This document shows positions 45,448 through 48,509 of a stretch of DNA of 64,000 bases, one piece after another. The notes beneath the pieces were generated by a model that searched no databases, was not told the DNA's origin, and worked only from the letters and a program-made list of their open reading frames with translations. A program made the position numbers and the translations under genes. Location of the stretch: assembly GCF_034009455.1 (NCBI RefSeq), contig NZ_CP125380.1, positions 1,343,001 through 1,407,000 of the forward strand, written 5' to 3'. The DNA comes from Pseudomonas sp. P5_109 (GTDB taxonomy: Bacteria > Pseudomonadota > Gammaproteobacteria > Pseudomonadales > Pseudomonadaceae). Every line of letters starts with the position of its first letter. Position 1 is the stretch's first letter.

Positions 45448-45463
45448 TATGCAATTCTGCATT
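45448..45463. promoter_or_regulatory. TATGCA inverted repeat upstream of the repressor gene
   Basis: ATGCA-ATTC-TGCAT (core 45449-45462) lies 27 bp before the prtR-like start codon. It shares its half-site with the better palindrome before the holin gene. Further ATGC-rich copies (GATGCAAAA at 45421, GTTATGCGT at 45435) lie close by. It is a candidate operator for autoregulation. Confidence 0.45.
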
Positions 45464-45489: not shown

Positions 45490-46233
45490 ATGCGTGTTAT
45501 GCAAAAACGCAACGTTTCAACTGTCTTAAGAGCATTGCTCGATCAGCACGGGATCTCCCCCACGGAGCTTCACCGTCGTACCGGCGTGCCTCAATCCACG
45601 CTCTCGCGCATTCTCAGCGAGAAGATCGTCGACCCTTCGGATAAACATATTTCGAAGATCGCCGAGTATTTCTCCGTGAGCACCGACCAGTTGCGTGGCC
45701 GCGCGGACGTAGCTTCTGCTGCTAATGCCGGGCGCGCTCCCGTGCATTCGGAACTCAAGGATATAAGTCTGTGGGACGACGATACCCCTGTCGATGACGA
45801 CGAGGTATCGGTCCCCTTTCTTCGTGAGGTTGAATTGGCTGCTGGATCCGGAAGATTCGTCATCGAAGAAAGCGAGCGCTCTAGCCTGCGCTTTGGCAAG
45901 CGAAGCCTGCGCCATAACGGCGTGCAGTTCGACCAGGCCAAGTGCGTGACAGTGCGAGGCAACAGCATGTTGCCGGTACTGCGCGATGGCGCCACGGTCG
46001 GGGTCAATGCCGGCAAGTGCGGCATTGGCGATATCGTTGACGGCGACCTTTATGCAATCAATCACAATGGTCAATTGCGGGTGAAGCAGCTGTATCGGCT
46101 GCCGACCGGGATTCGTCTGCGCAGTTTCAATCGCGACGAGCATCCGGATGAAGATTACACCTTTCAGCAAATCCAGGAGGAGCCGATTGTTATCCTCGGG
46201 CATGTCTTCTGGTGGGGTATGTACGCCCGTTAA
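45490..46233 (+). CDS. prtR: PrtR-like tailocin/phage repressor, HTH plus S24 peptidase
   Basis: LexA/CI-like repressor of 247 residues of the kind that controls R-type tailocins. The N-terminal helix-turn-helix is GISPTELHRRTGVPQSTLSRIL (21-42). The C-terminal S24 domain has the cleavage pair Ala118-Gly119 (ELAAGSG), the nucleophile S159 in VRGNSMLP and the general-base K199 in RVKQL. So RecA-stimulated self-cleavage should be possible. The longer reading from 44410 is only antisense mutS. The start is ATG at 45490 or 45499. The gene is followed by its own terminator and a holin gene, but no tailocin structural genes remain. Confidence 0.9.
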   Translation: MRVMQKRNVSTVLRALLDQHGISPTELHRRTGVPQSTLSRILSEKIVDPSDKHISKIAEYFSVSTDQLRGRADVASAANAGRAPVHSELKDISLWDDDTPVDDDEVSVPFLREVELAAGSGRFVIEESERSSLRFGKRSLRHNGVQFDQAKCVTVRGNSMLPVLRDGATVGVNAGKCGIGDIVDGDLYAINHNGQLRVKQLYRLPTGIRLRSFNRDEHPDEDYTFQQIQEEPIVILGHVFWWGMYAR

Positions 46234-46250
46234 TTCCCTTGCGTTCAGAT

Positions 46251-46278
46251 AAAACCCGCTTATCGAGCGGGTTTTTTT
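46251..46278 (+). terminator. Intrinsic terminator after prtR
   Basis: AAAACCCGCT-TATCG-AGCGGGTTTTTTT, 18 bp after the repressor stop. It makes prtR a single-gene unit and means the holin needs its own promoter. Confidence 0.92.
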
Positions 46279-46323
46279 CGTGTGCTGAAAGCATTGGACT
46301 GTCTTTTTTGATGCGTTTGTGCA

Positions 46324-46352
46324 TTGACTAAATATGCATTGATGCATAGTCT
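46324..46352 (+). promoter_or_regulatory. Putative holin promoter with embedded palindromic operator
   Basis: TTGACT (46324-46329) could be a -35 element, with TAGTCT (46347-46352) as a weak -10 at 17-bp spacing. Between and overlapping them is the palindrome TATGCAT-TG-ATGCATA (46333-46348, seven-base arms). A repressor bound there would block the promoter. The same TATGCA half-site occurs before prtR. Confidence 0.5.
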
Positions 46353-46406
46353 TGCTGCCTGCCCACTCAAGAATGCGGTGTGGCCGTTCACTCAAGGAGG
46401 CATGAA

Positions 46407-46748
46407 ATGACCGCTGAGCAATATGCGTTGCTGGACATGCCTCTTTGGCTACTCATTATCTTGCCAATTCTCGGTGGTGTTGCCGGTGAAATGTGGCGTG
46501 CCGACAAAGAGGGCGTTCATGGCTGGCCCCTTGTCCGGCGCCTGAGCCTGCGGTCTGGCTCCAGCATGATCTGCGGCGCTTCGGTCATCATGCTGCTGCA
46601 TGCCGCCAATGTTTCCATTTGGGCTGCTTGTGCGGGTGGCTGTTTAACGGCGATGGTCGGGACAGACGTAGTTTTAGGGTTGTATGAGCGTTGGGCAGCC
46701 AAGCGCCTGGGGATCGGTCATGTCCCGTCCGGTGACGTCGAGGATTGA
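46407..46748 (+). CDS. Tailocin-type holin (small membrane protein)
   Basis: 113-residue protein with hydrophobic segments at about 12-28, 52-67 and 70-92 and a charged C-terminus (YERWAAKRLGIG). It resembles the holin found directly after prtR in R-type tailocin clusters of P. fluorescens. Such holins make inner-membrane lesions that let endolysin reach the cell wall. The start at 46407 has a perfect AAGGAGG six bases upstream. Another ATG at 46402 is followed by a stop after two codons. No endolysin, spanin, tail or fibre gene follows: the next gene is pncC. Recognition is from memory of the family. Confidence 0.75.
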   Translation: MTAEQYALLDMPLWLLIILPILGGVAGEMWRADKEGVHGWPLVRRLSLRSGSSMICGASVIMLLHAANVSIWAACAGGCLTAMVGTDVVLGLYERWAAKRLGIGHVPSGDVED

Positions 46749-46866
46749 TTCCCCGACAGGCCTTTTCCAGAGCCTCTGGTTCTTTACATTTTGATCGATC
46801 CAGTCGCTTGCAAGTGCGGTCTGCTCGTGTACGGTTAACCTCATCCCGCCCGATCAGGAGATGACC

Positions 46867-47367
46867 GTGAACGAAATCACCCAACTCGCCGCCGAACTCG
46901 GCAGACGCCTGCAGGTTCTCAATGCCCACGTCACCACGGCGGAGTCCTGCACCGGCGGAGGCATCGCCGAGGCAATCACCCGTATCCCCGGGAGTTCGGC
47001 CTGGTTCGAGGCCGGTTATGTCACTTACTCCAACCGGCAGAAAACCCTGCAACTGGATGTCCCGGTTGAGTTGTTCACTACCGTGGGCGCGGTCAGCCGC
47101 GAGGTGGTCGAGGCCATGGTCCGGGGGGCGCAGAAGAAAAACAGCGCGTATTTCTCCGTGGCTGTCAGTGGCATCGCCGGTCCGGATGGTGGAACGGCGA
47201 ACAAACCGGTGGGCACGGTATGGCTGGCCTGGGGCGTCGGAGACCAGGTGTTCTGTGAGCGGCAGCAGTTCCCGGGTAATCGCGATGACGTCCGCCGACA
47301 AACGGTGAAGGCCGCGCTAGAGGGGCTGCTGCGGTATGCCGCGGCAGAAATCTCAAATCAGGGGTAG
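46867..47367 (+). CDS. pncC: Nicotinamide-nucleotide amidohydrolase (CinA C-terminal domain)
   Basis: Hydrolyses NMN to nicotinate mononucleotide in the pyridine nucleotide cycle. The 166-residue protein is the stand-alone C-terminal CinA domain, with [17 protein letters not shown] and [23 protein letters not shown]. It lacks the N-terminal MocF-like domain, as in other gamma-proteobacteria. GTG at 46867 is preferred because AGGAG ends six bases before it. The ATG at 46861 directly abuts that sequence. It sits upstream of recA as usual and marks the right edge of the tailocin site. Confidence 0.9.
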
Positions 47368-47450: not shown

Positions 47451-48509
47451 ATGGACGACAACAAGAAGAAAGCCTTGGCTGCGGCCCTGGGTCAGATCGA
47501 ACGTCAATTCGGCAAGGGTGCCGTAATGCGTATGGGCGATCAGGACCGTCAGGCGATCCCGGCTATTTCCACTGGCTCTCTGGGTCTGGACATCGCTCTC
47601 GGCATCGGCGGTCTGCCAAAAGGCCGTATTGTTGAAATCTACGGTCCTGAATCTTCCGGTAAAACCACGCTGACCTTGTCCGTGATCGCCCAGGCTCAAA
47701 AAGCCGGCGCGACCTGCGCATTCGTCGACGCCGAACACGCCCTCGACCCTGAATACGCCGGCAAGCTGGGCGTCAACGTCGACGACCTGCTGGTTTCCCA
47801 GCCGGACACCGGCGAGCAGGCCCTGGAAATCACCGACATGCTGGTGCGTTCCAACGCGGTTGACGTGATCATCGTCGACTCCGTGGCCGCCCTGGTGCCA
47901 AAGGCTGAAATCGAAGGCGAAATGGGTGACATGCACGTGGGCCTGCAAGCCCGTCTGATGTCCCAGGCGCTGCGTAAAATCACCGGTAACATCAAGAACG
48001 CCAACTGCCTGGTGATCTTCATCAACCAGATCCGCATGAAAATCGGCGTGATGTTCGGCAGCCCGGAAACCACCACCGGTGGTAACGCACTGAAGTTCTA
48101 CGCATCGGTTCGCTTGGACATCCGTCGTACTGGCGCGGTGAAAGAAGGTGATGAAGTCGTCGGTAGCGAAACCCGCGTCAAGGTTGTGAAGAACAAGGTG
48201 GCTTCGCCGTTCCGTCAGGCCGAGTTCCAGATTCTTTACGGCAAGGGCATCTACCTCAACGGTGAGATGATCGACCTGGGTGTTCTGCACGGTTTCGTAG
48301 AGAAGTCCGGCGCCTGGTATGCCTATGAAGGCACCAAGATCGGTCAAGGCAAGGCCAACTCGGCCAAGTTCCTGGCAGACAACCCGGAAGTCGCGGCAAA
48401 GCTGGAGAAACAACTGCGTGACAAGCTGCTGTCGCCTTCGTCGGTGGCAGACGCCAAAGCTTCTGCGGTCAAAGAGACCGAAGACGACCTAGCCGACGCT
48501 GATATCTGA
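47451..48509 (+). CDS. recA: Recombinase RecA
   Basis: Strand-exchange ATPase and SOS co-protease. The 352 residues begin [23 protein letters not shown] and have Walker [10 protein letters not shown], Walker [11 protein letters not shown], and the DNA-binding loops around [15 protein letters not shown]. The acidic C-terminus ([10 protein letters not shown]) is typical. The start is ATG 47451 with GAGGA upstream. It is followed by its regulator recX after eight bases, and preceded by a LexA box. Confidence 0.99.

Follow-up and report, generated by a model that had tools for sequence, protein, structure and literature searches.

How can a repressor and a holin, both apparently whole, sit side by side at a tailocin site with no tailocin for the holin to release? 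The question is raised by the interval between mutS and cinA in the window, by which we mean the whole 64,000-nucleotide stretch of the Pseudomonas sp. P5_109 chromosome analyzed here. That interval is about 1.5 kb long and contains prtR and the gene for a PF16085 holin, and nothing else. The first-pass annotation of this DNA compared it with the tailocin site of Pseudomonas fluorescens, correctly so, judging from our interval comparison and from passages of Mavrodi 2009 (PMC2647930). Its observation of a prtR–holin pair without tailocin genes between mutS and cinA/recA is confirmed. Its interpretation as a whole is partly supported, and it missed the recurrence of the pair across lineages, what look like operators over the holin promoter, and the apparent removal of a tailocin leader. 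In this paper, we arrive at the suggestion that in the window, which comes from a soil bacterium, and in a number of related strains, a tailocin cluster (elsewhere the source of a harpoon-like protein weapon) has shrunk to a DNA-damage switch and a pore protein, perhaps as a minimal self-destruct or leak module.

Neither gene is a wreck, and the earlier reading of both as intact holds. On the forward strand, prtR (45490..46233) encodes a 247-aa CI/LexA-like repressor with an HTH and an S24 peptidase domain (PF00717, E 4e-17). The features of an SOS-cleavable S24 repressor, an Ala-Gly site and a Ser/Lys dyad, are found in PrtR just where they had been placed (A118-G119, S159, and K199), identical in 113 of 113 aligned proteins; locus L163 was left out of this count and of the operator counts, automatic detection having missed its PrtR start. 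The first ATG of prtR is missing in that same locus, which together with the alignments suggests that the true start is 45499. An intrinsic terminator follows the gene (46251..46275, forward strand), its hairpin and T-run mostly retained across 24 aligned compact loci, that is, loci with prtR and the holin only. A second PrtR-like C-terminal domain, 37% identical, lies elsewhere in the same genome (G000:C1:6204733-6205161, L009).

The holin gene, hol (46407..46748, forward strand), encodes 113 amino acids, of which 1–112 match PF16085 (E 9.8e-45), and hydropathy gives three hydrophobic segments (8–26, 53–71, and 74–92), so that both marks of the family, a full-length profile match and hydrophobic segments, are found. 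Its other match, phrog_3897, carries no named function, and holins of this kind from P. protegens are 69–70% identical to it. The ribosome-binding site noted earlier is a Shine-Dalgarno AAGGAGG (46394..46400, forward strand) ending 6 nt 5′ of the holin ATG, with GGAG conserved in the 24 aligned compact loci. From the end of hol to the ATG of cinA at 46861 there are 112 bp, into which, on inspection of the ORFs, no further gene fits; tail, fibre, and endolysin genes are missing there as the first-pass annotation said. No ORF at the locus, an AlpA antiterminator included, lies between prtR and hol. Beyond come two flanking host genes on the forward strand: cinA/pncC (46861..47367; PF02464, E 5.8e-52), whose start had been put at 46867, where there is an in-frame GTG, and recA (47451..48509), an ORF with 97–100% matches in those relatives whose stretch reaches recA. 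The start of recA does lie about 700 bp beyond the holin, as had been remarked, and this closeness has no bearing on the matter because RecA acts in trans. On the other side, near mutS, the window encodes the small RNA RsmZ (RF00166, 42056–42186), which is likewise present in the four relatives scanned.

Is this arrangement an accident of one strain? We classified 161 rows of mutS–cinA intervals: the window itself, the best 80 of 375 relatives by holin similarity (a ranking that disfavours broken holins), and 80 further intervals picked by cinA identity or on suspicion from among the cinA and holin matches listed. The holin lies less than 400 bp from cinA in 36 rows, 25 are reduced, 55 are full or long (a number that includes L125, in fact a remnant), 13 are empty, and 32 are unresolved, with mutS, prtR, and the holin all missing from the roughly 8 kb upstream of cinA. 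The 36 short rows comprise 32 compact loci, with 159–301 bp between prtR and hol, and four that we call MINIr (L030, L136, L163, and L164), with a gap of more than 500 bp and all still in possession of the tailocin leader. Sixteen rows count as duplicates of others, which brings the 161 rows to 145 distinct intervals and the 32 compact rows to 28. In this non-random sample, then, the prtR-plus-holin state appears in 28 of 145 distinct intervals (32 of 161 rows), and a one-off deletion is rejected, the compact state recurring across relatives. The two genes keep close company, with both present in 114 of the 116 loci that have either; of the exceptions, L125 has a 58-aa prtR fragment and no holin, and in L139, the sequence stretch ends within the locus.

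On a tree of mutS with 109 rows, the compact state requires six changes, and well-supported branches make five of these unavoidable; five compact rows (L012, L017, L024, L112, and L149) stand off this tree, their stretches having no long mutS match. Of the 22 rows in the window's clade (SH-aLRT 94, the branch unstarred), which includes P. laurylsulfatiphila, P. laurylsulfativorans, and P. azerbaijanoccidentalis, 21 are compact, and the one exception, L133, has a leader, an endolysin, and a spanin-like ORF. A deep lineage (L150, L166, and L175) is compact in three of three rows, and L106, L114, and L119 are compact loci nested among tailocin carriers. The holin tree, built on 115 columns, is poorly resolved, with 66 of 99 inner branches open; it unites 22 holins like that of the window on a fully supported long branch, to which the other compact holins do not belong, and adds P. 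jessenii to the window's clade and L149 to the deep lineage.

Two observations at the borders of the interval deserve a place of their own. The cinA gene (window 46861–47367; L012-L024, L031, and L042) falls into two allele groups, 81–86% vs. 95–99% identical to the window, and the strains of both groups have recA genes 98–100% identical and, where a long match exists, mutS genes 98–100% identical, a pattern suggesting that the border of the tailocin site has recombined. Next to two compact loci, one of them that of P. jessenii DSM 17150, only the first 34–42 codons of mutS match (L012:8804-8929 and L017:8829-8930), with no masked bases, and mutS of both genomes seems to be interrupted or replaced there.

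If PrtR is to govern the holin, one would look for its operators at the holin promoter. A promoter block of TTGACT, 17 bp, and TAGTCT (46324..46352, forward strand) is mostly unchanged across the 24 compact loci aligned, although absent from the listing of a generic sigma-70 scan. Alignment and motif scan place one operator-like site, ATGC-N6-GCAT, at 46311..46324 and another at 46334..46347, between the −35 and the −10, so that both overlap the predicted promoter, where the repressor of an Alp-type module might act directly. A further site at 45449..45462, upstream of prtR, probably serves autoregulation. (None of the three is assigned a strand.) The exact motif occurs three times in the 64-kb window, every time at the prtR–hol locus; this is not significant by number alone because shuffled windows contain 1.9 sites on average and 35 of 100 reach at least three. 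In the whole genome, the tandem pair occurs at a single place, and the composite promoter motif, at up to three mismatches, occurs once, whereby a regulon with other double-operator promoters is rejected. Across the rows compared, all 53 full rows, all 25 reduced rows, and 28 of the 32 compact rows have an operator in the 150 bp upstream of prtR. At no more than 320 bp from hol, an operator is present in every one of the 32 compact rows; the count is 4 of 25 for reduced rows and zero for the 3 MINIr and the 53 full rows. The holin promoter of the compact rows has at least one such site in 32 of 32 and two in 27, and its pattern is recognized in 32 of 32 by a looser and 26 of 32 by a stricter definition; full rows have the pattern as well (50 of 53), 372–2,837 bp upstream of hol.

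In full loci, the distance from the PrtR promoter to hol is taken up in part by a leader some 360 nt long (L066:9611-10000, for example, with equivalents in other loci), near-invariant in its core across the 22 rows aligned. BLAST matches it in all 53 full rows, 24 of the 25 reduced rows, all 4 MINIr rows, and 2 of the 32 compact rows, the latter as fragments only; a scan for its terminator-like hairpin scores 46 of 50, 21 of 24, 0 of 2, and 1 of 32 (L106, weak), respectively. Compact loci, it appears, have shed most or all of the leader yet retained the holin. Of the compact loci nested among tailocin carriers, L114 retains a proximal piece, and L119 retains a distal piece, in which the terminator hairpin is weakened (−5.2 vs. 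−23.7 kcal/mol); leader and terminator would therefore have been lost by different routes, with the holin between the losses kept. In species whose cinA is far more divergent (G102 and G193), the leader likewise lies some 150 bp before the holin, for which reason the compact form is most likely the derived one.

The leader is no peculiarity of a few strains. Of 249 Pseudomonas genomes, 145 have a match to its core, including 4 of 15 with the compact locus (G106, G137, G172, and G237; in G172, off the cinA contig), and so do 10 phage records, among which PseuP_224 has it directly 3′ of a cI gene. Rfam returned no match at its gathering score and none up to E 1, so that a known Rfam RNA is rejected as its identity. 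RNAalifold on the 22 leaders gave 76 predicted pairs, none with changes on both sides, and its secondary structure is on that account unproven. We regard it as a candidate antitermination element. In Q8r1-96, an ORF with the annotation Com begins within the leader's 3′ end.

Does the cell need what has been left behind? Both prtR and the holin are under purifying selection, and this argues for need because an unneeded gene, or a toxin that is merely repressed, could break freely. Across the 14 distinct core loci, dN/dS (NG86 with codon bootstrap) is 0.188 for the holin (0.117–0.273), 0.052 for prtR (0.030–0.077), and 0.128 for cinA (0.085–0.177), with recA at 0.026 and mutS at 0.017 (12 loci) for comparison; in a second compact lineage of four loci, the holin stands at 0.051 and prtR at 0.047. 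Within the holin, residues 51–98, which contain two of the three hydrophobic segments, are the most constrained (0.08, vs. 0.47 at residues 33–50 and 0.27 in the C-tail). Purifying selection and a lack of disruption among relatives were what the first-pass annotation had proposed to look for. The 14 core holins show no premature stops vs. about 17 nonsense changes expected without selection, an estimate from the third-position tree length, and 13 of the 14 were taken from the holin-similarity ranking, where intact genes have an advantage; among the 17 compact and MINIr rows of the cinA-leaning set, no holin is broken either. The holins of full clusters have a dN/dS of 0.094 (54 loci) or 0.085 (27 of those; 0.052–0.132), about half that of the core holin with overlapping intervals, and the constraint on the core holin may thus be partly relaxed or its role altered.

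Might the missing parts be kept elsewhere? The genome, 6.96 Mb in one contig, yields no PF04984 sheath (5 of 6 tailocin or reduced-locus control genomes match), no Baseplate_J (PF04865) over the cut-off (which only 3 of 14 control genomes exceed), and nothing that matches the tailocin GH19 endolysin (all 6 control genomes do, one being the source of the query). A search of this kind had been proposed before, and an R-type tailocin elsewhere in the genome is rejected by its outcome. That is, of the parts of a tailocin, the genome has the PrtR-type repressor and holin at mutS–cinA and lacks the sheath and baseplate genes searched for genome-wide; of a phage lysis cassette, there is the holin, with no endolysin at the locus and no tailocin-type GH19 in the genome. 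A second PF16085 holin over the cut-off, 62% identical, sits inside a lambda-type prophage (G000:C1 ~3941587-3973800; L092, L093, and L095) with a terminase, a portal, an integrase, and its own S24 repressor. PADLOC assigned no defence system, with weak HTH-type matches for PrtR and none for the holin, and a known anti-phage system is rejected on these grounds.

We consider it probable, then, that the pair is a domesticated two-gene module, distilled from a tailocin, in which RecA-stimulated cleavage of PrtR directly switches on a membrane-permeabilizing holin. In the undamaged cell, PrtR would occupy the two ATGC-N6-GCAT operators over the holin promoter and the one at its own. On DNA damage, active RecA would bring about self-cleavage of PrtR between A118 and G119, the holin would be transcribed directly, with a short 5′ leader in place of the tailocin leader and its terminator, and the inner membrane would be permeabilized, leaving the cell killed or leaking. 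The plasmid pLysS supplies T7 lysozyme. Killing by the holin alone is for that reason left unsettled by the report, in passages of PMC2647930, that its Pf-5 relative is lethal in E. coli Rosetta/pLysS without its endolysin. What the cell or its kin would gain we can only infer; candidate benefits are stress-triggered self-lysis, the release of contents or vesicles, and the early death of infected or induced cells. Of the three possibilities that the first-pass annotation entertained (a decayed remnant, an ancestral core, and a small altruistic-death or membrane-leak system), the last is the candidate function that seems to fit best.

It could be objected that we are admiring a ruin, in which the tail genes have gone and prtR and hol are passengers awaiting erosion. 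Total loss does occur at this site, as the 13 empty intervals testify; L125 is on its way there with its repressor fragment and no holin, the four MINIr loci are reduced clusters that still have the leader, and the core holin evolves under a higher dN/dS than the holins of full clusters. Against this, dN/dS is far below 1, the stops expected in the core holins are wanting (in a sample that favours intact ones), the operator-like sites are conserved, and the holin has been retained although sequence on both sides of it was lost. Pure decay is rejected by the first two of these, which contradict the earlier suggestion of a decayed remnant, and we think a decaying remnant in any form improbable. 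A more serious competitor, which we still hold to be rather unlikely, is that the damage-induced holin helps in trans, giving a way through the membrane to an endolysin or a cargo whose gene lies at another locus, such as a prophage hydrolase or an S-type bacteriocin. The lambda-type prophage does encode a PF07486 cell-wall hydrolase, unlinked to the prtR–hol locus; in P. aeruginosa, one endolysin, Lys, is served by AlpB, CidA, and Hol alike, according to PMC8131026; and since some GH19 endolysin match occurs elsewhere in 11 of 15 compact genomes (several of these matches being incomplete or containing a stop) and a sheath in 7 of 15, a partner might be found among prophage lysins. Yet four compact genomes have no match to the GH19 endolysin, the lysin family covered across these genomes, and these four, the window's included, have no sheath either; moreover, the strong PrtR promoter motif is unique to the prtR–hol locus in its own genome, so that no co-regulated partner was found.

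The history could also be told backward, with prtR–hol resident first and the tail clusters inserted later. The pair does fill one deep lineage, all three of its mutS-tree rows with L149 joining on the holin tree, and Mavrodi 2009, in passages of PMC2647930, sees prtR–hol as the conserved flank of a recombination hotspot. But the leader adjoins the holin in the divergent species too, and the different leader fragments kept by L114 and L119 make compact forms look derived; an ancestral core, the remaining suggestion of the first-pass annotation, is disfavoured and seems to us about as improbable as decay. The domesticated module has a bolder version, in which Pseudomonas repeatedly distils tailocins to an endolysin-free holin under RecA/PrtR control, removing leader and terminator each time, with the product selected for itself. 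This we put forward tentatively, as something short of an even bet, and with the same reserve its corollary that the holin would be a directly wired death or leak device, used, for example, against phage or for the release of DNA or vesicles.

Should the domesticated-module reading be true, the pair would count as one of the smallest genetically encoded units for DNA-damage-triggered self-permeabilization in bacteria. The several lineages would then amount to replicates that arose naturally and independently, sister strains with a tailocin or an empty site could serve as controls, and it would become testable whether holin-driven death pays without a weapon to release. The loss of a conserved leader and terminator would also suggest a route by which a weapon might be turned into a self-directed module.

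How does the pair compare with what is already known? The R/F-type tailocin clusters of the P. fluorescens group (PrtR, Hol, tail genes, and Lys) occupy the same mutS–cinA site and share with it the operator-like sites and promoter, a PrtR 81–97% identical (full and reduced loci compared), and a holin 57–72% identical; unlike them, the compact pair is without tail, fibre, GH19 endolysin, spanin, leader, and leader terminator and has its holin directly behind the PrtR promoter. Between the two, the reduced loci appear to form an intermediate class of orphan lysis cassette, prtR–leader–hol–GH19 endolysin at the same site, which like the compact pair have kept repressor and holin without tail genes and unlike it retain the endolysin and the leader (partial in L064). 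Examples are L064, L053, L035, L118, and L133, some with a spanin-like ORF, and one such endolysin, that of L104, is confirmed as PF00182. Among the literature matches listed, whose titles and abstract openings cover the field in part, none describes an orphan PrtR–holin pair or the tailocin leader RNA. The closest working parallel would seem to be the Alp pathway of P. aeruginosa, in which, according to passages of PMC7969949, DNA damage leads to AlpR self-cleavage, AlpA enables polymerase to read through a terminator, and alpBCDE bring about lysis; the same source says that the pathway is thought to be a repurposed part of a prophage. The compact pair lies at a different locus, has a PF16085 holin, and has neither an AlpA gene nor alpCDE beside it. 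By its working only, it would be a likeness of Alp, a self-cleaving repressor freeing a holin after damage.
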